IMG/VR virus record: IMGVR_UViG_3300030333_007500 | Coordinates: 1-28,348 of that record | From: a virus | Direction: 5' to 3' (one strand) | Length of the DNA stretch: 28,348 bases | Shown: in pieces, positions 2,954-21,219 of the stretch | Layout: every line of letters starts with the position of its first letter | Position numbering within the stretch: the first letter of the stretch is position 1 | Translations under genes and position numbers: made by a program | The notes under the pieces: generated by a model | Told to the model about the DNA's origin: nothing | Database searches by the model: none | Seen by the model: the letters and a program-made list of their open reading frames with translations, nothing else

Positions 2954-4093
2954 ATGCAAATTAAAAAAGAAGATTTATACCCACACCTTAAAAAAATATG
3001 TTATATACCTACTTTAAATATTGGTGTTGTTACATGGCGTATTGAGAATTATGCTAATGAATTATTAAAATTTAAAGATGATTGTATTGTTCATATTGAT
3101 TATATTGTTGACGCTAATAGCAACATTGCATGGGATAAGTTTGCAATTAATCATAATGAATTTTCTAAAAAAATCGTTACTAAACTTGAACAATGTTTTG
3201 ATTATTTTGATTTTCTTATTTTTCAAAAAATACAAAATAAAGAAGCGTTAATTCTAATTGAACAATTAAAAAAGAAATACCCTCAAACTAAAGTTATTGC
3301 AGAAATTGATGATGCTATCGGGGAGGTAACACCCTCAAATAAAAATAAATTTACCTACCACCATAGATATGCCGCTCAACATATGATTATTAGTGATGCC
3401 ATAATAGCATCTACGCAATTTCTAGGTGAAAGTGTAAGAGAAATAGTAGGTAATAATAAGCCTATCCATGTAGCACCTAATTGTATTAATATCGGTGATT
3501 TTGGTATGTGTTTCGATCAAAAAAATATTAATCCTTTACCAAAAAAGGAAACTATTAACCTTGTTTATGTTGGGGCAGGTGGACACGATGAAGATTTAAA
3601 ACTCTTTATTAAGCCTATCCTTAATATACTTAAGAGCCGTGACGATGTACGTTTTATTATCAGGTATGGAGATCATAAACCAGAATTTATACCTAATCAT
3701 GAATTCATTGATTTTAAAACTAACGTTATTAACTCGCCTAATGATGAATGGGCAATTAAAAATTATTTGTATTCGATGTATAAATTAAATGCTAATATCG
3801 GGTTAGCACCACTAAGGGATACGCAATTTAATCGCTGTAAATCGGGTATTAAATGGGTTGAATGGAGTTACTTAAATGTACCACTTGTGGCTAGTAATGT
3901 TGAACCGTACAAAAGAATAGATGGTAGTTTATATTTAACTGATAATAACTCTACTGAAATTCAAAAACGTATTAATATCGCTATACAATCTCAAAGCAAA
4001 AGAGATTTTACTTTTTTGAAAAATCAATCTATGCAAACTTTTAATATTCAAAAAGAATGTAAACGTTTATTATCGTTTATGGATAGTTTATAA
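2954..4093 (+). CDS. GT4-like (GT-B fold) glycosyltransferase
   Basis: The 379 residues have a two-domain GT-B look. The N-terminal half contains FLIFQKIQ and VIAEIDDAIGE. A central linker has IIASTQFLGESVRE ... HVAPNCINI. The C-terminal donor domain has LVYVGAGGHDEDL, NIGLAPLRDTQFNRCKS and KWVEWSYLNVPLVASNVEPY, the usual nucleotide-sugar end of GT4 enzymes. It should add a sugar to a glycan. AAAGGA at 2941-2946 is the ribosome binding site. The gene ends just before a promoter-like element (4098-4106), so it probably closes this transcription segment. Donor and acceptor are unknown. Confidence 0.8.
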   Translation: MQIKKEDLYPHLKKICYIPTLNIGVVTWRIENYANELLKFKDDCIVHIDYIVDANSNIAWDKFAINHNEFSKKIVTKLEQCFDYFDFLIFQKIQNKEALILIEQLKKKYPQTKVIAEIDDAIGEVTPSNKNKFTYHHRYAAQHMIISDAIIASTQFLGESVREIVGNNKPIHVAPNCINIGDFGMCFDQKNINPLPKKETINLVYVGAGGHDEDLKLFIKPILNILKSRDDVRFIIRYGDHKPEFIPNHEFIDFKTNVINSPNDEWAIKNYLYSMYKLNANIGLAPLRDTQFNRCKSGIKWVEWSYLNVPLVASNVEPYKRIDGSLYLTDNNSTEIQKRINIAIQSQSKRDFTFLKNQSMQTFNIQKECKRLLSFMDSL

Positions 4094-4304: not shown

Positions 4305-4495
4305 AATATATTCAGGTAACGGTTAAAACTAATAACGTTATTTATTATGTATCGGGTAAATATAATATTACCCAAGATGAAAGCAAGATGTTAGTTTTAC
4401 AAGATGAAAAACGTATTAAAGAAATTGTTGAAAATATAGAGCGTGTGTTTTCTAAAGATGTTCATATAATTGAAATAAAAGAATTAAAAAAATGA
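4301..4495 (+). CDS. Small hypothetical protein (64 aa)
   Basis: It is coupled by ATGA overlap to the gene before and the gene after. The product is a small mixed alpha/beta protein (MKYIQVTVKTNNVIYYVSG start, helical KRIKEIVENIERVF, strand VHIIEIKEL). It resembles no family I can name. It has no membrane segment or Cys. Confidence 0.6.
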   Translation: MKYIQVTVKTNNVIYYVSGKYNITQDESKMLVLQDEKRIKEIVENIERVFSKDVHIIEIKELKK

Positions 4496-4569
4496 TTAAG
4501 GCAATTATGGATATAATACTGTTTTTTATGTTGTTTTACGGCTTATTTTATTTTTTATGTTCATTCTAA
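4492..4569 (+). CDS. 25-residue single-membrane-helix peptide
   Basis: The ATG at 4492 overlaps the previous stop (ATGA) and the frame ends with TAA at 4567-4569. Nearly all of MIKAIMDIILFFMLFYGLFYF is one hydrophobic helix. There is no independent ribosome binding site, so expression would depend on coupling. It is one of several very small membrane peptides in the window; chance hydrophobic frames are common in AT-rich DNA, hence moderate confidence. Confidence 0.45.
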   Translation: MIKAIMDIILFFMLFYGLFYFLCSF

Positions 4570-4595
4570 ATAAAAGTATTTAAAAGGATTAAGTT

Positions 4596-4769
4596 ATGGC
4601 AGTACCTAAAAGAAGACGATCAAAAGCAAAAAAAAGAAGCAATAAAGCTAATTGGAAACTAAAAAAGTATGAAACAAAGCAATGTAAGTCTTGTAATAAT
4701 TCAGTTATTTTTCATCATGCTTGCTTATGTGAAATTAAAAAAAGTAAAAAGAAGGTAGAACATGGATAA
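4596..4769 (+). CDS. rpmF: Ribosomal protein bL32, phage-encoded
   Basis: The 57-residue product begins MAVPKRRRSKAKKRSNKA, the signature N-terminus of bacterial and plastid bL32, and has the family length. A zinc-ribbon follows: C30-x2-C33, then the family's HH-x-C motif at 40-43 and C45. In zinc-type bL32 the last pair is usually C-x2-C followed by G and aromatic residues. Here it is C-x-C and the tail is a Lys-rich KKSKKK, so the C-terminus has diverged. bL32 is a component of the large ribosomal subunit near the exit-tunnel region. AAAGGA (4582-4587) precedes the ATG, and the stop overlaps the epimerase start by 8 bases, which places it inside phage transcription rather than a host yceD-rpmF-plsX locus. 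The name rests on the N-terminus plus zinc-ribbon. Confidence 0.82.
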   Translation: MAVPKRRRSKAKKRSNKANWKLKKYETKQCKSCNNSVIFHHACLCEIKKSKKKVEHG

Positions 4770-5790
4770 ATTTTTAGTAACAGGCGGAGCAGGTTTTATT
4801 GGGTCTCATATTGTTAAACACTTGCTATCACTTAACAATGTTAAAGTAGTTGTTTTAGATAATTTAAAAGCAACTAAAAACTTATCTAAGTTAGCTCTTA
4901 TCCCACAAATATTATCCGATAAATTTACCTTCATAAAAGGGGATATAAGAGATTATGATACTTGTATAAAAGCTCTTAAAGGTGTTAATTATGTTTTACA
5001 TCAAGGTGCATTGGGAAGTGTTCCACGTAGTTTTGATAATCCATCTGAATATCATGATAATAATGTTGTGGGAACTGATACGCTTTTCAAGGCTTGTGCT
5101 TATATGCAAAATAAAGAAAATAATCTAAAACGGATTATCCAAGCGTCATCAAGTAGCGTATATGGAGATATTCATATATTACCAAAAAATGAAGAAATAA
5201 AACCCAAACCAAAATCACCTTACGCAGAAACAAAACTTAAATGCGAAGAATTAGCAGAAAAATATAAAGACATTGATATAATATCCCTTCGATATTTTAA
5301 CGTGTTTGGATCAAACCAAAGTTTAAATTCCGATTATAGTGCCGTGTTTCCTGCTTTTTTTAATGCCATAAAAGAAAATAAACCTATTACTATACATGGG
5401 GATGGTTTACAAACTAGAGATTTTACTTATGTTCACAACACTGTTCAAGTTAATGTTCAGTTAGCATTAAAAGGAGCTAAACATTCGATTATCAATGTAG
5501 GGCAAGGAAATAGTATAAGCATTAATACATTAGCTAAAAAAATTATAGAATTATCAGATAAAAAAACACATGAAATTATTTACACTAAGCAAAGAAATGG
5601 AGATGTAAGGGATACTTTAGCCTGTACTAAACAATTAAGTAAAAGTTACAACATAGATGACTTTATTAACTTTAATATTGGATTAGCATTAACAGCTGAA
5701 TTTTATCTCCATGAAAAAGAATATTATAATAAATTGCACAAGGAATATCTAAGTTATTTTTTAGATAAAGGGATTGAGAATGGAGCATAA
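4762..5790 (+). CDS. NAD-dependent UDP-sugar 4-epimerase (extended SDR, UDP-GlcNAc 4-epimerase-like)
   Basis: The 342-residue enzyme has the extended short-chain dehydrogenase layout: TGGAGFIGSH NAD motif (about residues 7-16), VLDNL (about 33-37), GDIRD, HQGALGSVPRSF, ASSSSVYGD, the catalytic YAETK, LRYFNVFG and QTRDFTYV. The ALGSVPRS segment is typical of the WbpP/TviC group, which converts UDP-GlcNAc to UDP-GalNAc. That group feeds a WbpO/TviB-type dehydrogenase to make UDP-GalNAcA, and a (truncated) dehydrogenase of that superfamily is at 944-1828. The exact substrate is inference. GAAGGTAG at 4751-4758 is the ribosome binding site, inside the bL32 gene. Confidence 0.85.
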   Translation: MDKFLVTGGAGFIGSHIVKHLLSLNNVKVVVLDNLKATKNLSKLALIPQILSDKFTFIKGDIRDYDTCIKALKGVNYVLHQGALGSVPRSFDNPSEYHDNNVVGTDTLFKACAYMQNKENNLKRIIQASSSSVYGDIHILPKNEEIKPKPKSPYAETKLKCEELAEKYKDIDIISLRYFNVFGSNQSLNSDYSAVFPAFFNAIKENKPITIHGDGLQTRDFTYVHNTVQVNVQLALKGAKHSIINVGQGNSISINTLAKKIIELSDKKTHEIIYTKQRNGDVRDTLACTKQLSKSYNIDDFINFNIGLALTAEFYLHEKEYYNKLHKEYLSYFLDKGIENGA

Positions 5791-6260: not shown

Positions 6261-6499
6261 ATAAATCATTATTATTACACAATAACATAGAAAGAATACC
6301 AAGCAGTATAGCTAATTATCACTTGTTATTAGATGCTGTAGAGGAACTAAAAGAAAAAGGTTGGTCTCTTACAAAAATAGCTAAAACAATGAAAACATCT
6401 CAATCTCATTTAAATTGTTTATTATCTAATCCTAAAGGAATTAAACACGATAAATTAAAAAAATACATGCTTAACTTAAATAATTTTTTAGATGACTAA
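6257..6499 (+). CDS. Small helix-turn-helix protein (80 aa)
   Basis: Residues about 36-57 (GWSLTKIAKTMKTSQSHLNCLL) read as a helix-turn-helix, with the second helix SQSHLNCLL as recognition helix. The rest is helical and basic. It may be a DNA-binding regulator. It is coupled by ATGA overlap to the membrane protein upstream and has no separate ribosome binding site. No dimerisation or inducer domain is present. Assignment to a named repressor family is not justified. Confidence 0.6.
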   Translation: MNKSLLLHNNIERIPSSIANYHLLLDAVEELKEKGWSLTKIAKTMKTSQSHLNCLLSNPKGIKHDKLKKYMLNLNNFLDD

Positions 6500-8943: not shown

Positions 8944-9531
8944 ATGCTAGAAGAAATTCATTATATTCGTATTGCTAGATACAATTTTTTACTTAATAAA
9001 TTAACTAGGCTGGAATTTGATTTTTTAAAATGTTTAACAGCTGAAACTTCCAAAATATTACCTATGACTATGGACTTTATAACTGTTTCTGGCGAGTTAC
9101 AAAAATGCAATTTTAATGGGGTTCGGATTAATATATCTATTATTGAAGATTTGTTATCGGATATAAAAATTAGGGATAAAGATACTAAACAATTGGTTAA
9201 GTTTATCAATACAAACACTATTCATAAAAGTTTGTTTGAATTTTTAAATGGGATTTATTCTGTATATAAGTCTTTGCTTAAAGATAATCAAATGAAGACA
9301 AGACGTTATTCACAATTATGGGCTTGCATGGCGGGTGTTAATGGGGAGTGGTTGACACGTACCATCAAAAAACAAACGTGTCTTGATAATCTTGCGTTTA
9401 TAACCTATCCCAATAACACAAAAATTTTTATTGAAGGATTGAAAATCTTCATATGTAAAGAATTAAAGCAAAGGAGGAAATTATTTATAAAAGAAAAAGA
9501 ACAAAAACAAAAACAAAAACAGGAGAAATAA
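8944..9531 (+). CDS. Hypothetical protein at head of the replication/recombination block (195 aa)
   Basis: Two in-frame ATGs (8938, 8944) exist; GAGGTG at 8931-8936 fits the second, which gives MLEEIHYIRIARYNF. The protein is mostly helical, contains a central VNGEWLTRTIKKQTCLDN, and ends in a low-complexity basic KEKEQKQKQKQEK tail. It lies 2 bases before the ERF gene and follows its own promoter, so a role in DNA metabolism is possible, but no motif proves it. Confidence 0.65.
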   Translation: MLEEIHYIRIARYNFLLNKLTRLEFDFLKCLTAETSKILPMTMDFITVSGELQKCNFNGVRINISIIEDLLSDIKIRDKDTKQLVKFINTNTIHKSLFEFLNGIYSVYKSLLKDNQMKTRRYSQLWACMAGVNGEWLTRTIKKQTCLDNLAFITYPNNTKIFIEGLKIFICKELKQRRKLFIKEKEQKQKQKQEK

Positions 9532-9533
9532 CA

Positions 9534-10397
9534 ATGAAAAATAAAATAGATAACGTTCACGACGCTTTAGTATTAATACAAGGTAATCTTAAATGTCCAA
9601 AAAATCAAAAAAATACGTTTGGAAATTATTCATACAGAAATTGTGAGGATATATTACAAGCATTAAAACCCCTTTTAAAAGAAACTGATTGTTATATTAA
9701 ATTTGATGATCAAATAATATCTGTTATGGATAGGGTTTACATTAAATCAACAGCAACGTTACATCATATTATAAGCAATCAACATATTTCATCTACCGCA
9801 TTAGCAAGAGAACCCGAAATAAAAAAAGGTATGGATTTATCGCAGATTACAGGTGCTTCATCATCTTATGCGAGAAAATATGCCTTAAATGGTATGTTTG
9901 CCATTGACGATAATAAAGATGCTGATTTTTATAATAACAATGAACCTGCAACAGTTACGCAAAAAGCTGACGATAATACAGCACCGTCCACACCTTCAAC
10001 AAATTCAACACCGATAACAAATACATCTTCTGATGTATCTATGAGTGAAAAACAGATTAGATATATTAATAGTTTAACAAAAAAAATGAACCCTGAAGAT
10101 GTAACAGTATTATTAAAAAATATGTTTAATAAAGAAAGTTTGCTAGAACTGAAAAAAGAAGATGCTAACCGATTAATTACGGAACTGAAAAAATCTGAAG
10201 ATGAAAAAAGAGATAAGTTAATCTTACAGATAACGGAAAAGCATACTAACTACAAAGAGATGCTAGAGCCTTTAAATCAAATTTCACAAGAAGTATGTAA
10301 AAGAGATATATCAGATATAATTTATCTTTCTGATGCATTAAAGGTTAATAGCCAAATAGATCACCTAATTAAGGAATCTGTAGGGGTAGATCAATAA
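9534..10397 (+). CDS. erf: ERF-family single-strand annealing protein (recombinase)
   Basis: The N-terminal 130 residues match the ERF superfamily: LVLIQGNLKCPKNQKNTFGNYSYRNCEDIL, then the diagnostic GASSSYARKYALNGMFAIDDNKDADF at about 107-132. ERF proteins anneal complementary single strands and support recombination-dependent replication or circularisation of phage DNA. A Thr/Ser/Pro-rich linker (about 140-170) leads to a helical C-terminal region (EKQIRYINSLTKKM ...) of the kind found in other phage annealing proteins. The length of 287 residues is somewhat longer than P22 Erf. AGGAGAAATAACA precedes the ATG. Confidence 0.92.
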   Translation: MKNKIDNVHDALVLIQGNLKCPKNQKNTFGNYSYRNCEDILQALKPLLKETDCYIKFDDQIISVMDRVYIKSTATLHHIISNQHISSTALAREPEIKKGMDLSQITGASSSYARKYALNGMFAIDDNKDADFYNNNEPATVTQKADDNTAPSTPSTNSTPITNTSSDVSMSEKQIRYINSLTKKMNPEDVTVLLKNMFNKESLLELKKEDANRLITELKKSEDEKRDKLILQITEKHTNYKEMLEPLNQISQEVCKRDISDIIYLSDALKVNSQIDHLIKESVGVDQ

Positions 10398-10408
10398 AGG
10401 AAAATACA

Positions 10409-10951
10409 ATGATAAATTTAAACAAAGAAGAACTTACACACTTACTTAAAAGTGATGTTAGTGCTTTTAATAAGCATGTATCCAAATACCCACGCCAAAA
10501 AAAATATTTCTTAGAAGGTGTTGATCTTAGTGGGACTGATCTTGAAAAGGCTGATCTTAAACAGGCTAATTTTAAAAAGGCTAATCTTAGAGGGGTTAAT
10601 CTTAGAGGGGTTAATCTTGAAGGTGCAGTTTTTGAAGGTGCTGATCTTGAAGAGGCTAATCTTAGTAGGGCTAATCTTAGATTATGTAATCTTAGATGGG
10701 CTAATCTTGAAGGTGCTAATCTTGAAGATGCTAATCTTGAAGGTGCTGAGCTTCTAGGTGCTAATCTTGAAAAGGCTGATCTTAGATCTTCTTATCTTTC
10801 AGGTGCTGAGTTTGACGGTGCTAATCTTATAGATGCTAATCTTATAGATGCTAATCTTAGAAGGGCTAGTTTTAACATGGCTGATATTAGAGATGTTTAT
10901 ATACAACTAACAGAACCAAATATAAAAGCAATTAAGGTAGCTATTTTTTAG
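10409..10951 (+). CDS. Pentapeptide-repeat protein (180 aa)
   Basis: Residues about 36-160 consist of consecutive A(N/D)Lxx units (for example ADLEEANLSRANLRL, EGANLEDANLEGAELLGANLEKADL), which fold into a right-handed quadrilateral beta-helix. The N-terminal 35 residues are helical. Some family members mimic DNA and bind gyrase; others have unknown roles. The gene lies between the annealing protein and the replication initiator, with its own ribosome binding site (AAAGG). The DNA shows 15-bp periodicity, and the shadow frame on the same strand is an artefact of this repeat. Confidence 0.9.
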   Translation: MINLNKEELTHLLKSDVSAFNKHVSKYPRQKKYFLEGVDLSGTDLEKADLKQANFKKANLRGVNLRGVNLEGAVFEGADLEEANLSRANLRLCNLRWANLEGANLEDANLEGAELLGANLEKADLRSSYLSGAEFDGANLIDANLIDANLRRASFNMADIRDVYIQLTEPNIKAIKVAIF

Positions 10952-10972
10952 CAAAAAAAAGAAGGATGAAAT

Positions 10973-11677
10973 ATGAATATTAAAATTGAAGATATCACTA
11001 TTAAAATTAAAGATATAACCCAGTATGGTACGGATAGCGTTATCCTTTTGGGATTTATCAAAACCTTAACAAGTAGGCTAGATGACTGGTTTTATGTAGG
11101 TGTGGCTGATTTAGCCAAACTAGGTTGGAGTAAATATAAACAAGAACAACAACTAAAACGATTAATTAGTTTAAATCTAATTCAAGTTAGCTATTGCGAT
11201 AAAAATAAACGAAAAGTAAGACTTATCCACAGGTTATCCACAGGGCAGTCAAATTTTGACCAGCCCCCAGTTAAAAATTTTGACCAGCCTGTGGATAACT
11301 CCAAAGATTTACAAAAGTACGATTCTATGCTAGAATTGAACTCAGGTACAAGATCTCCTGAGTTATTAAGAAAAAAACCTATAACTGATATTGAAACTAT
11401 TATTACTTTCTGGAATAAATCTCAAAAATATATCAATATAGATACTATACATTTATATGATAAAGATTTATATAACCTTTTAAGGAAATATACAGTAAAT
11501 GATATTATAATGGCAATTACAAATGTTAATAATTCATCGTTTTGGCAAAATAACGAATTAACTTTTGGTAATTTTATAAAAATTAATGTGTTTACAAAAA
11601 TATATAGGGGTGATTTTTGTGGTAAATCGACAAAAGATAAAACAGAAACGGCGATAGGGGATTTTTATGGATATTGA
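10973..11677 (+). CDS. Phage replication initiation protein (winged-helix N-terminus, DnaD-like C-terminus)
   Basis: Residues about 14-88 (SVILLGFIKTLTSRLDDWFYVGVADLAKLGWSKYKQEQQLKRLISLNLIQVSY...KVRLIH) have the winged-helix pattern common at the N-terminus of phage O-type or replisome-organiser proteins. A polar linker (about 89-135) contains two NFDQP repeats. The end (ITDIETIITFWNK ... LTFGNFIKINVFTKIYRG) resembles DnaD/O-type helicase-recruiting tails. The linker DNA carries DnaA boxes and iteron-like repeats, so the protein probably binds its own gene as origin, as lambda O does. The 3' end overlaps the next gene by 11 bases. Confidence 0.75.
   Translation: MNIKIEDITIKIKDITQYGTDSVILLGFIKTLTSRLDDWFYVGVADLAKLGWSKYKQEQQLKRLISLNLIQVSYCDKNKRKVRLIHRLSTGQSNFDQPPVKNFDQPVDNSKDLQKYDSMLELNSGTRSPELLRKKPITDIETIITFWNKSQKYINIDTIHLYDKDLYNLLRKYTVNDIIMAITNVNNSSFWQNNELTFGNFIKINVFTKIYRGDFCGKSTKDKTETAIGDFYGY
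11223..11364. other. Candidate replication origin inside the initiator gene
   Basis: Three perfect DnaA boxes are present: TTATCCACA at 11223-11231 and 11234-11242 (spaced exactly 11 bases, one helical turn) and its inverse TGTGGATAA at 11290-11298. The second and third are part of a perfect 12-bp inverted repeat (GTTATCCACAGG 11233-11244; CCTGTGGATAAC 11288-11299). Between them AAATTTTGACCAGCC occurs twice (11251-11265 and 11275-11289), 24 bases apart. A perfect 8-bp hairpin (AACTCAGG 11339-11346; CCTGAGTT 11357-11364) follows. I saw no other TTATCCACA in the window by eye. Confidence 0.7.
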
Positions 11678-12251
11678 TTTATTAGCCAAGAAATGGGAAA
11701 AGGAATTTAATCAAGCTAAAAATAATCCTCTTTATTTTGCTTTAGCGGATTTATTTCGATCTTATAGCAAACCTTTAAAATTAATAGAGAATAAAGTTAC
11801 ATTTTTAGAATATTTAACCTTTCTAGAAGATCATAATGTAGATGCTAACACGTTGGTGGGCTTTATAAAGCAACATAAAAAGAACTTAGAGGCAGGGCAT
11901 TTTTTCCCTAAAATTAATCAACTGTTAAAACCGTTATTAGTTATTGAAGACAGTAAAAGGCAATTACAGAAAAAAGAAAATATAGATAGTTTGGTTGATA
12001 AGCATGTTGATTTGTTTTTAAAACGATTAAATCATGAGCGTATTGATACTACTGTTTCGTATGAGAAAGTGTTAATTGATAAAATTATAAAGGAGTTAGG
12101 GGGTTTAACTAGTTTAGCCATGCGTACACCTAAAGATCATATGTTTATAGTCAAAAATGTACGTGAACGGTTTCAATCTTATTTTGAAACACAAGTTGAA
12201 AAACAGATATTACATACTCAAATTGCTAATATTCCTATGTTAAATTCTTGA
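11667..12251 (+). CDS. Hypothetical protein downstream of the initiator, possible helicase loader (194 aa)
   Basis: It overlaps the initiator by 11 bases, with AGGGGAT as ribosome binding site. The protein is helical and soluble: LAKKWEKEFNQAKNNPLYFALADLFRSYSKPLKL, then FLEYLTFLEDHNVDANTLVGFIKQHKKNL, then a second helical domain with LLKPLLVIEDSKRQLQKKENIDSLVD. It has no Walker motif, so it is not a DnaC-type ATPase. Its place directly after an O-like gene is where a lambda P-type helicase loader would be; that role is inferred from position only. Confidence 0.65.
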   Translation: MDIDLLAKKWEKEFNQAKNNPLYFALADLFRSYSKPLKLIENKVTFLEYLTFLEDHNVDANTLVGFIKQHKKNLEAGHFFPKINQLLKPLLVIEDSKRQLQKKENIDSLVDKHVDLFLKRLNHERIDTTVSYEKVLIDKIIKELGGLTSLAMRTPKDHMFIVKNVRERFQSYFETQVEKQILHTQIANIPMLNS

Positions 12252-12316
12252 TTTTTAAGTAAAAAAATAGTAATATAACTGAAATTAAAATTTAATATTT
12301 ACATTAAGGAATTAAA

Positions 12317-12601
12317 ATGAAAAAACAAGATCAATTATTAAGACCTAGCTCAATTCCCGAACTAATTCTTATTAATATGTTAGATCGTGGAATGGTTACT
12401 TCTCAGATGTTTGAAATGATGTACAGCTCTATTGAAAACAATCCACTTGTAAAAAAGATTTTAAAAAACAGTTCTTTTGAAGATGAAATAAAACAGTACG
12501 GTTTAGATGATGTTGGTTTAAATTATAAGAAATCTAAAAATACTGTTTTTAAAAGAAAAAAAACGCAGTATAATAAAAATGTTGATAACTTGCAGGCTTA
12601 A
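12317..12601 (+). CDS. Hypothetical protein (94 aa)
   Basis: TTAAGGAATTAAA precedes the ATG. The first half is helical (SSIPELILINMLDRGMVTSQMFEMMYSSIENNPLVKKIL); the second half is basic (KKSKNTVFKRKKTQYNK). It is the last plus-strand gene of the replication block, and its stop codon is part of a hairpin (12593-12632). The family is unknown. A helical front and basic tail could bind nucleic acid. Confidence 0.65.
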   Translation: MKKQDQLLRPSSIPELILINMLDRGMVTSQMFEMMYSSIENNPLVKKILKNSSFEDEIKQYGLDDVGLNYKKSKNTVFKRKKTQYNKNVDNLQA

Positions 12602-12632
12602 GTTAGTTATCCCCTTTCTAATCTTAAGCCTG
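12593..12632 (+). terminator. Hairpin terminator at the convergent junction
   Basis: CAGGCTTAAG (12593-12602) pairs perfectly with CTTAAGCCTG (12623-12632). TTAG (12603-12606) extends the stem with CTAA (12618-12621), leaving a one-base bulge. The hairpin covers the stop of the 94-residue protein and is followed by TTTACATTT. It should end plus-strand transcription before the convergent operon. Confidence 0.65.
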
Positions 12633-12649
12633 TTTACATTTAAATTAGG

Positions 12650-12724
12650 ATGAATAACAGAATTAAAAGAGAATTGAAACAACTATTTTAACATTATAAT
12701 AAAAAATAATGATCTGTTATTCAT
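12650..12724. repeat. 12-bp inverted repeat with 51-base spacer between convergent genes
   Basis: ATGAATAACAGA (12650-12661) and TCTGTTATTCAT (12713-12724) are perfect inverse copies. The right arm covers the stop of the minus-strand gene at 12721. Inside is a smaller AT hairpin (CATTAT 12692-12697, ATAATG 12706-12711). It could terminate minus-strand transcripts or bind a protein; the long loop makes a simple terminator less likely. Confidence 0.5.
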
Positions 12725-12945
12725 TGTGATTTAAGTTCAAATTTACTTTTTCTGGATTTAGGGATTTGGTAATCTTTGTAACTGTTTCTATTGTACTGGT
12801 ATAGCTCATAAAGCTGAACTGAGTTAAATATCGGTTTCTTTTGGTAAGATGTCGTAATGTTTTCCAAACTCATAACTGAAACCGTGTTTTCGTTCAAAAT
12901 GACTCGTCTGTAAATCTTTGAGAATATACTCGTTAGTTTTTTCAT
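12721..12945 (-). CDS. Hypothetical basic protein (74 aa), overlapping its upstream neighbour
   Basis: On the minus strand AAAGGTGG lies just before the ATG at 12945, a strong ribosome binding site. The product starts MKKLTSIFSKIYRRVIL (amphipathic, basic) and ends in KDYQIPKSRKSKFELKSQ. It overlaps the previous minus-strand gene by 122 bases in another frame, which is unusually long for this genome. One of the two frames could be wrong, but both have good ribosome binding sites. Confidence 0.5.
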   Translation of the reverse strand: MKKLTSIFSKIYRRVILNENTVSVMSLENITTSYQKKPIFNSVQLYELYQYNRNSYKDYQIPKSRKSKFELKSQ

Positions 12946-13033
12946 TTTTAACCACCTTTCTTTTTTTCCAGTAAACCTGTCCTTGTTTGCTTATATTCCT
13001 AGAATAAACGATATTTTGATTTGTACCTAACAT
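12824..13033 (-). CDS. Hypothetical protein (69 aa)
   Basis: AAAAGGAG stands about 6 bases before the ATG at 13033 on the minus strand. The product (MLGTNQNIVYSRNISKQGQVYWKKRKVVKNEK...) is basic and beta-rich, without a known motif. It is the fourth gene of the minus-strand operon and overlaps the last one. Confidence 0.55.
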   Translation of the reverse strand: MLGTNQNIVYSRNISKQGQVYWKKRKVVKNEKTNEYILKDLQTSHFERKHGFSYEFGKHYDILPKETDI

Positions 13034-13056
13034 TTAATCTCCTTTTTAATCTTGTT

Positions 13057-13260
13057 TTAATTTGTGCTTAAATATTCTTTGGTGACAATAAGAACTGAAC
13101 CTAATGGAAAGTTTAGTGTATCGTGCATAAACTCTATCAAAATACGCTGATTTAAATTTAAGTTGTTATTACAAGGGGCGTAAAGATTTTTTAGTTTACC
13201 TGAATAGGAAAATAGGCCACGTTTTTGATAATCATAAACAGTAATTTTCTTTTGTTTCAT
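13057..13260 (-). CDS. Hypothetical protein (67 aa)
   Basis: Its start overlaps the stop of the DUF1064 gene by 4 bases (ATGA), so it is translationally coupled. The product MKQKKITVYDYQKRGLFSYSGKLKNLY... is soluble and basic at the start, with a strand-rich end (LGSVLIVTKEYLSTN). No family recognised. Confidence 0.6.
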   Translation of the reverse strand: MKQKKITVYDYQKRGLFSYSGKLKNLYAPCNNNLNLNQRILIEFMHDTLNFPLGSVLIVTKEYLSTN

Positions 13261-13592
13261 GTTTCTATAAATTCGTATTTATTAGAGTCTAACATATTTA
13301 GTAAAAGTTTTTTCTTTATCCGATACGTTTCTGTCTTAAACCCCTTACAATCCTCAATAATTGTCTTTTTTCCTGCTTGATAAACAAAATCAGCTATATA
13401 TTTAATTTCACGGTGTTTTTTTTTATTAAAGGTAAAACTAGGTAGCAGAATGTACGGAATTTGATATTTTAAATCTGCAATTTTCCCTGCTTTAAGTAAC
13501 AATTCAAGCTCAATAGCCCTTCTTTTTTCACGCTTTGAATGGTATCCGTCAGGAGTTACCGTATTGTTATACTTATTTTTGCGTATTCTCAT
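13257..13592 (-). CDS. DUF1064 family protein, nuclease-like fold
   Basis: The 111-residue protein matches the DUF1064 pattern: RKNKYNNTVTPDGYHSKREKRRAIELELLLKAGKIADLKYQIPYILLP, then IKYIADFVYQ, then KKTIIEDCKGFKTETYRIKKKLL. The E...D...ExxK-like arrangement (Glu in the first helix, ADF, then IEDCKG) is that of PD-(D/E)xK nucleases; family members are found among phage recombination or replication genes and are suspected Holliday-junction or VRR-type nucleases. The initiating ATG overlaps the upstream gene by 20 bases, without its own ribosome binding site. Function is inferred from the fold. Confidence 0.82.
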   Translation of the reverse strand: MRIRKNKYNNTVTPDGYHSKREKRRAIELELLLKAGKIADLKYQIPYILLPSFTFNKKKHREIKYIADFVYQAGKKTIIEDCKGFKTETYRIKKKLLLNMLDSNKYEFIET

Positions 13593-13773
13593 AACAGTTA
13601 CTTACAAAATATGCTTTTAATAAACGAAGCTCAGCTCTATCATTATCTTGTATATTTATCGTAAAATTTCTTTGTGCCATATTCTTTGCTTTGTATTCAG
13701 CATACTTTGTTTTAATATCAGGCGGCGATTGTGGTACCCTTGGACTTGTTGGTGGTGTCATATTTATATTCAT
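13573..13773 (-). CDS. Hypothetical protein, first gene of minus-strand operon (66 aa)
   Basis: A Met at 13785 is in frame, but its codon overlaps the GGAG (13780-13783, minus strand) that lies 6 bases before the ATG at 13773, so I start it at 13773: MNINMTPPTSPRVPQSPPD. A Pro-rich head precedes a charged helical part (KYAEYKAKNMAQRNF). The function is unknown; it leads the operon that carries the DUF1064 protein. Confidence 0.6.
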   Translation of the reverse strand: MNINMTPPTSPRVPQSPPDIKTKYAEYKAKNMAQRNFTINIQDNDRAELRLLKAYFVSNCYENTQK

Positions 13774-13801
13774 TTGATTCTCCATTTATTTTTAATTTAA
13801 A

Positions 13802-15906: not shown

Positions 15907-17880
15907 TTGGAAAAGTTAGAAAGGTATCAGCAAGAGCAAGACGCTATAGAACATTTTCTAGGCTTAAAAAAAACGTATTCTGATCAGCGACAACCCTATG
16001 AAGACGCATGGCAACAAGCCTTAGATGCGGTATACATGCGTGACGATAATTTAACGAAAGTTTATGAAGGCCGAGCAGAAGTAAATTCCCCTATTATGAA
16101 GTGGAAAGTACAGGGCATTGTTAGCCGAGTTATGAAAATTCTTTTTAATTCTATTCCTATCGCACGAATTGAACCAACTCAAGATAGTAAAATGCATGAT
16201 TCTGTTATTGAAGTATGGAATCGTTTTATTTTTGAAAAACAATTAGGTGATATTGATTTCATGGATGCGTACCGATTATTTTTTAAAAATTGTGCTATTC
16301 AAGGTACATCTGTTGCAAAAATCCCACAAATTTATGAAAAACGTGATATTACTTTTTTTCCTGATGATGAAGAAAGTGATACGGAAATGGTTATCAAAGA
16401 TAATACATATTTTGAACCCATATTATTAACTGAATTTTATTCTGATGTTAATAAATATTCACCCCAAGATAGTTTAGCTAATATTCATACCACTGCTATA
16501 CGTTACGAAGATTTAAAAAAACATGAAAAACGTAAAGAAAAATCTACGTTTGAAATGGTTGATCCATCTACAGGTGAAGTCGTTGGCTATGAAGAAAAAA
16601 TGGAAGATGTTGGTAAATATCACAATTTAGATTTAATTGTTAATAACGAGGGCGGTTATTCCCCACAACAACAAGATTATATTGAATTGTTAGGCTTTAA
16701 CCGTACAGCCAGAACAGCATTTCAAAAAGCATTAAGAGATCAAAAAAAATCAGGTTTAGTACGTATTGATGAATGTTATGGAAAATACTTTTTAGATGGA
16801 GAAGAAAGAGAAGTTATTTGTACGATTGCTAACGGTAATGTTGTTATACAATTAGAAGAGTCACCATTTAGGCATAAACAATATGTTAGACCGTTTATTG
16901 TTGGTAAATATGAACCAATACCCAACTGTTTGTACGGTGTTAGTAACGTAGTAGCAGGATTATCTTTATTACGTGAATTAAATGCCGCTAGATCACAAAG
17001 CCGAGACGCTAACACGCAATCTATTTTCCCTATGACCTATATTGATAAAACACGTAACATTAACTGGGATAAAATGTGGAGGCCTAACGGAATTATTGAA
17101 GGTCAAGGCTCTAACGGTATAACTTCTATTATTAATCCTAGTTTAGCAAATGTTAATATTAACGATACGGCTATTATACAACGTGATATAGACCAATTAT
17201 TTAGTTTAAGTCCAGTTCAAGAAGGTACAAGTGACCGAACCAAAATACCACAAACTAAAGGGGCAACATTATCAATTATTGCCCAAAATGATATGCCATT
17301 AAATGAACTTATTAACTTACAAACAAATGAAGTTATAAAACCATTTATTGAAATGTTATATGAACGAAATATAACTTTCAAAGATGTATCCGATTTATTA
17401 AGTGTTTATTCTGAAGAACAGTTAGCAAAACTAGGGTTTACTAACAATATTAAAATGCAAAATTTATACTTTGATTTTAATACAAAAGTTTTAGGTAACT
17501 TAGAATTATCTAACGAAATAGCTCACCAAAATGGCTATATGAATTTTTTAAATTATGCGTCATCTATACCCCCATTAGCTAAACGCATAAATTGGCAAGA
17601 GGTAGGGGAAAAATTATTGGCCGCTTTTGGTATAAAAGACGATGCTAACAATATCTTTTTAGATGATGAACTGGTAGCTCAAACAGATGCACAAATGGCA
17701 CAACAACAACAACAAGCTATGCAACAAGCAAAGCAAATGGAAAAACAAGAACGAATAGAACAAAAAATAGAGGATATAGATAAATATAAAGCTGAAAAAC
17801 AAATTGATTTAGAAGCTAAGTTAATAGAAGACAATCACGAAGTTATGGTAGAAAAATTAACAGGACAAAAAATTGCCTAA
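15907..17880 (+). CDS. Portal protein (TTG start)
   Basis: The 657 residues fit a podovirus portal: helical N-terminus with QRQPYEDAWQQALDAVYMRDDNLT, MKWKVQGIVSRVMKILF, a central wing region, the segment PNCLYGVSNVVAGLSLLRELNAARSQSRDANTQSIFPM, and a Gln-rich coiled C-terminal crown (QMAQQQQQAMQQAKQMEKQERIEQ). The portal forms the twelve-subunit ring through which DNA enters and leaves. AAAAGG at 15893-15898 is 8 bases before TTG 15907; the next Met is at residue 43, beyond conserved-looking sequence, so the TTG start is well supported. Confidence 0.85.
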   Translation: MEKLERYQQEQDAIEHFLGLKKTYSDQRQPYEDAWQQALDAVYMRDDNLTKVYEGRAEVNSPIMKWKVQGIVSRVMKILFNSIPIARIEPTQDSKMHDSVIEVWNRFIFEKQLGDIDFMDAYRLFFKNCAIQGTSVAKIPQIYEKRDITFFPDDEESDTEMVIKDNTYFEPILLTEFYSDVNKYSPQDSLANIHTTAIRYEDLKKHEKRKEKSTFEMVDPSTGEVVGYEEKMEDVGKYHNLDLIVNNEGGYSPQQQDYIELLGFNRTARTAFQKALRDQKKSGLVRIDECYGKYFLDGEEREVICTIANGNVVIQLEESPFRHKQYVRPFIVGKYEPIPNCLYGVSNVVAGLSLLRELNAARSQSRDANTQSIFPMTYIDKTRNINWDKMWRPNGIIEGQGSNGITSIINPSLANVNINDTAIIQRDIDQLFSLSPVQEGTSDRTKIPQTKGATLSIIAQNDMPLNELINLQTNEVIKPFIEMLYERNITFKDVSDLLSVYSEEQLAKLGFTNNIKMQNLYFDFNTKVLGNLELSNEIAHQNGYMNFLNYASSIPPLAKRINWQEVGEKLLAAFGIKDDANNIFLDDELVAQTDAQMAQQQQQAMQQAKQMEKQERIEQKIEDIDKYKAEKQIDLEAKLIEDNHEVMVEKLTGQKIA

Positions 17881-21087: not shown

Positions 21088-21219
21088 ATGCCCTTAAAAA
21101 AAGGTAAAAAAAATATTGGTTATAATATAAAAGAATTAAAATCATCTGGTAAACCTAAAAAGCAAGCTGTTGCAATCGCTATGAAAAAGGCAAAAGGTAA
21201 ACGAAACTATGGGAAGTGA
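21088..21219 (+). CDS. Short basic conserved phage protein (43 aa)
   Basis: GGAGGAAATT immediately precedes the ATG. The product has the pattern MPLKKGKKNIGYNIKEL ... GKPKKQAVAIAMKKA, which recurs as a very short conserved protein between head and adaptor genes of many phages. It is strongly basic and probably helical near the end; its role is unknown. The stop overlaps the following start by 11 bases. Confidence 0.75.
   Translation: MPLKKGKKNIGYNIKELKSSGKPKKQAVAIAMKKAKGKRNYGK

Follow-up and report, generated by a model that had tools for sequence, protein, structure and literature searches.

Ribosomal proteins encoded by viruses form an established class (PMC6375957, PMC13157829). They include bS21, bL12, bL9, bL31, bL33, and others, and bL32 goes unnamed in the main text of the survey that describes them (PMC6375957). 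The same text gives bS21, bL12, bL9, bL31, and bL33 as exchangeable on ribosomes and leaves bL32 out (PMC6375957). Most phage ribosomal proteins reported to date are readily exchanged on finished ribosomes. The Microcystis phage PhiMa05/MaAM05, a jumbo phage of 274 kb, carries six ribosomal proteins (bS1, bL21, bL27, bL33, uL11, and uL1) and is without bL32 (PMC13157829). In E. coli, bL32 adjoins uL22 in 50S assembly, and binding of uL2 always needed earlier uL22 and bL32, a possible assembly checkpoint (PMC11723945). L32 is dispensable in E. coli and in B. subtilis (PMC5049393).

We analyzed an IMG/VR virus record of 28,348 bp (the window), which encodes a terminase, a portal, and a major head protein. 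An open reading frame of 57 residues on the plus strand (4596–4769, ATG to TAA; MAVPKRRRSKAKKRSNKANWKLKKYETKQCKSCNNSVIFHHACLCEIKKSKKKVEHG) had been proposed from the DNA letters to be a phage-encoded bL32, and profile searches bear this out. PF01783 (E = 6.4e-9, 36.3 bits, curated Pfam cut-off 21.3) and TIGR01031 rpmF_bact from NCBIfam (E = 9.7e-10, 38.6 bits, curated cut-off 22.6) both match the protein above their cut-offs, and bL32 chains in the PDB match it down to E = 3e-6. Phage genes lie on both sides. The reading frame is almost certainly a true phage-encoded bL32 homologue, a truncated hybrid rpmF whose closest sequences come from Candidatus Marinamargulisbacteria and kin.

The phage protein is very basic (19 Lys plus Arg versus 3 Asp plus Glu). 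The N-terminal extension of bL32 threads into 23S rRNA, and the phage copy has this basic M-A-V-P-K-R extension, in which 13 of 14 residues match those of Marinamargulisbacteria rpmF. It shares with the Marinamargulisbacteria form the MAVPK-R-RRSK-KKR start, W20-K21, C-x2-C, and H-x2-C, and retains all host-conserved positions in residues 1–44 except P25, which is replaced by Tyr. Codons 1–47 (4596–4736, plus strand), which comprise the rRNA-binding extension, C-x2-C, H-H-A-C, and C45, are colinear with Marinamargulisbacteria rpmF and presumed host-derived. Unlike bacterial rpmF, the phage gene lies outside any ribosomal operon.

The zinc ribbon is altered, as the original prediction stated. 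The first Cys pair (C30-x2-C33) is intact, whereas the second is C43-x-C45 in place of the host C-x2-C, and the four-Cys arrangement C-x2-C ... C-x2-C of zinc-binding bL32 is therefore incomplete. Zinc-free bL32 forms exist, for example in E. coli; the C-x-C thus bears on zinc binding and not on family membership, and a zinc site in the phage protein is doubtful. The normal end is indeed replaced by a Lys-rich tail: the conserved G-x-Y-x-G strand after the last Cys is absent, with EIKKSKKKVEHG in its place, its Gly, Tyr, and Gly are lost exactly where the tail begins, and the 12–15-residue host tail is missing as well. We take the loss of this strand to mean that a member of the family has been truncated at its C terminus. 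An AlphaFold model (mean pLDDT 81.6) has a helix at residues 10–18, two short strands, and a helix at residues 44–55 that replaces the last strand of the ribbon, with low confidence at the C terminus. Fold comparison ranks bL32 chains top with weak scores (Foldseek E = 0.03; Z of 4 or less) and so adds little.

The gene sits between a 25-residue hydrophobic peptide (4492–4569, plus strand, recognized from its sequence) and a nucleotide-sugar epimerase (4762–5790, plus strand; phrog_540, E = 1.9e-71; PF01370), which it overlaps by 8 nt. Sister contig L014 (∼90% DNA identity) shows the same order of genes but lacks bL32: the hydrophobic peptide is kept and is followed directly by the epimerase (90% identical). 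Both bL32 flanks align unbroken to this single contig (88–93%), and relative to it the window differs at the site only by an insertion of 0.14–0.17 kb; the contig is thus not chimeric here, a danger that the original prediction had raised. A glycosyltransferase (2954–4093, plus strand; phrog_7162) from the same sugar cassette as the epimerase is 97% identical in L062, a locus on the same contig as L014, and marks the shared phage backbone. bL32 is also absent from twelve other relatives found via the terminase, most of them partial contigs, and its presence therefore varies among the members of one phage group. Just upstream of the hydrophobic peptide, L014 carries a different small basic ORF (2904–3243 of L014) that is absent from the window, which gives the spot the look of a cargo hotspot.

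How the gene may have entered is suggested by the gene leaders. In blastn alignments, the sister leader (L014 3311–3337, 27 nt comprising the leader plus ATGG) aligns twice in the window, so that the single leader of the unoccupied sister site flanks bL32 on both sides. The left copy (4569–4599, plus strand) serves bL32, and the right copy (4737–4765, plus strand) encodes bL32 residues 48–57 and carries the ribosome-binding site and start of the epimerase; the two alignments overlap on the L014 side. Among ∼40 gene leaders in the window these two copies match the sister leader best, a similarity that is partly generic, as two other phage gene leaders come close (24 and 23 versus 27). The right-hand match was reached by 0.3–1.2% of shuffles, compared with 28–37% for matches to the 3′ ends of host rpmF. 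Read in the bL32 frame, the right-hand copy gives KKSKKKVEHG-stop, so residues 48–57 look like translated phage leader.

We propose that host codons 1–47 were joined between two leader copies by recombination at short similarities, namely the ATGG at the start and, at the other end, AAAGGTAAA in host rpmF, where the phage leader has AAAAGTAAA; the latter pair is a plausible crossover point. Such a capture would have supplied bL32 with a ready-made ribosome-binding site and kept that of the epimerase intact, and the second leader copy would then have been read as a 10-residue Lys-rich tail. Residues 1–47 look host-derived, and the tail probably arose because translation runs on into the second copy of the leader, rather than as a purposely added domain. 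The tail could also be a diverged host C terminus, with CGYYKGK changed to CEIKKSK, and host DNA is similar at that place too. We also weighed whether the tail is a conserved Lys-rich end of Margulisbacteria; such ends do exist (IKIKEEK...), yet the match to the leader has both the better position and the higher score. We consider capture by leader duplication likely. The occupied and unoccupied sites show nearly base by base how a phage can capture a host gene with the ribosome-binding site of the neighbor kept.

Several comparisons point to the donor. Residues 1–45 form a bL32 that is most like that of Marinamargulisbacteria. The best match has 56% identity and 48.7 bits, and in a pattern-limited protein scan of 84,980 species genomes a Marinamargulisbacterium was the best of six matches. 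The best phage bL32 matches in 74 genomes of the Margulisbacteria phylum reach 48.7 and 47.9 bits, against 31.1 bits in 380 Patescibacteria genomes and 32.5 bits in 395 Desulfobacterota genomes, the controls being these two phyla with about 775 genomes together. The phage protein and Marinamargulisbacterium sequence L015 have the motif N-K-A-N-W-K in common. They pair with support of 95/90 in a tree of residues 1–43, a weak tree of 43 columns, and stand side by side (93/53), with the phage protein on a long branch, when all columns are used. A single clade of Margulisbacteria plus the phage is neither shown nor rejected with all columns (p-AU 0.343). At the DNA level, codons 1–14 (4596–4638) are identical to rpmF of genome G018 in 41 of 43 nt (95%).

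A second genome of the same phylum, G019, contains 61 bp that are 90% identical to phage positions 6449–6507 (E = 1.7e-13). The match corresponds to the 3′ end of a phage gene, codes for KKYML.LNNFLDD-stop, and has no intact gene around it, and it appears to be a relic of this phage group. In a control phylum the background outside conserved genes was ∼1e-5, with nothing near the 61-bp match. The site of the match (L063 1501–1561; G019 C26:22867–22927) lies beside a predicted lipoprotein-like gene. From a second part of the phage DNA came two matches, both short and AT-rich (E = 1.5e-6 and 5.6e-6), which we left unused. The portal has one weak partial match in the 74 Margulisbacteria genomes, so these hold no evidence of a related prophage. 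It is very likely that the phage bL32 originated in or near Marinamargulisbacteria, a class that NCBI taxonomy places within the Cyanobacteriota/Melainabacteria group, and a tailed phage would have taken rpmF from a Marinamargulisbacteria-like host. We found no described phage of Marinamargulisbacteria, and the bL32 gene offers a first clue to the host of this phage group. The ribosomal proteins of PhiMa05/MaAM05 are likewise traced to a lineage near Cyanobacteria (PMC13157829). The portal of the window (15907–17880) has its sole GenBank phage match in a portal-like protein of that phage (20.5% identity, 81% covered).

That bL32 would be unusual among phages agrees with our searches: we found no close viral relative of the 57 residues in a pattern-limited scan of IMG/VR, no bL32 in GenBank phages, no bL32 match in PHROGs, and no mention of a phage-encoded bL32 in the literature searched. 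Two viral contigs with a bL32 match proved to carry bacterial rpmF beside a prophage, in L021 after a YceD-like gene and in L022 at the contig edge before a terminase. A pattern-limited scan for viral contigs with an alignment to Margulisbacteria-type bL32 gave no further match. The IMG/VR scans rely on short exact patterns, so the absence of other viral bL32 genes is unproven. No second phage copy, and hence no viral clade of the kind named as possible support, emerged from these pattern-limited scans, in which most relatives are partial contigs. Like the virus ribosomal proteins treated in the main text of the survey, the window gene is a single host-derived ribosomal protein gene within a phage genome, set between phage genes at a site unoccupied in the sister, and it differs in being truncated and apparently fused to a phage leader (PMC6375957). 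That it is the first of its kind is unproven, the comparison with the survey covering the main text (PMC6375957).

With the N-terminal extension kept, the likeliest activity of the phage protein is binding to the bL32 site in new 50S particles. It would sit beside uL22 in particles assembled during infection and replace host bL32 there, bringing a weakened zinc ribbon and lacking the C-terminal strand. As bL32 is not among the exchangeable proteins named in the survey main text, the route would be assembly rather than swapping in. Whether the protein enters 50S particles at all we consider evenly balanced. The conservation of residues 1–44 apart from P25 is an indirect sign of purifying selection from one copy, and the dispensability of L32 in the two model bacteria leaves the gain to the phage not obvious; we consider a selected benefit less likely than not. 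Our main reading, that a tailed phage captured a host rpmF whose product acts in 50S assembly, has a probability of about 0.5. The fullest version, a first phage bL32, truncated and built from a host gene and a duplicated leader, that enters 50S and changes the ribosomes of a Marinamargulisbacterium, is on the unlikely side. A phage bL32, a protein outside the named exchangeable set, would point to ribosome assembly as a second route for phage ribosomal proteins.

Uptake into newly assembled 50S beside uL22 is the likeliest mechanism suggested by these sequences, with a recent neutral capture only slightly less likely. In the latter case the host fragment would be an accidental hitchhiker that, whether or not it is translated, has no selected role and will probably disappear later. 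We hold this for a serious contender at somewhat less than even odds: one copy is known, bL32 is missing from the closest sister phage and from every other relative searched, the C terminus and the fourth knuckle are damaged, and the spot is one of variable cargo. Against it, the frame is open with its conserved positions largely intact, and the identity of 50–60% to known hosts suggests that the gene has resided long in the phage or that its host is unsampled. Phages with compact genomes, moreover, tend to shed useless DNA. Incorporation and neutral capture are compatible, as the protein could become part of ribosomes and still bring the phage no advantage.

A competing variant that attaches to early 50S intermediates and impedes the assembly of host ribosomes, slowing the host while finished ribosomes translate phage mRNA, would fit the combination of a kept rRNA-binding N terminus with a broken C-terminal ribbon, and the dependence of uL2 joining on prior uL22 and bL32 in E. 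coli offers a possible checkpoint to disturb (PMC11723945). Such poisoning may be mild given that L32 is dispensable in two model bacteria (PMC5049393), and we think this role improbable. More improbable still is an exapted RNA-binding peptide that acts away from the ribosome, for example on phage mRNA; the strong basic charge and the divergent ribbon are in keeping with it, but conservation is strongest at the residues that typify ribosomal bL32, bL32 is the sole family to score over its cut-off, and the fold comparison matches bL32 chains. An assembly artefact or bacterial DNA within the contig is very improbable, for although one record only carries the gene, both flanks run on into phage genes that align to one sister contig, and no other gene of the rpmF operon is present.

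The sugar cassette of the window comprises glycosyltransferases, a UDP-glucose dehydrogenase, a methyltransferase, and the epimerase. The UDP-glucose dehydrogenase (932–1828, 298 residues) is matched over its N-terminal and central domains, and its C-terminal domain is unmatched. The window contains no more promoters than shuffled sequence, no match to an Rfam family, and no tRNA. It also encodes an Erf-like annealing protein. A block at ∼9512–13799 is inverted in sister contigs L003, L005, L006, and L010, with shared breakpoints near 9512 and 13782, at which we found no clear inverted repeat; L004 has the window orientation, as does L002 from 12311 on. Within this block, positions 10409–10951 encode a pentapeptide-repeat-like protein, several repeated stretches of which are held by relatives L009 and L013. 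The structural region contains a very basic ORF of 43 residues (21088–21219; MPLKKGKKNIGYNIKELKSSGKPKKQAVAIAMKKAKGKRNYGK).
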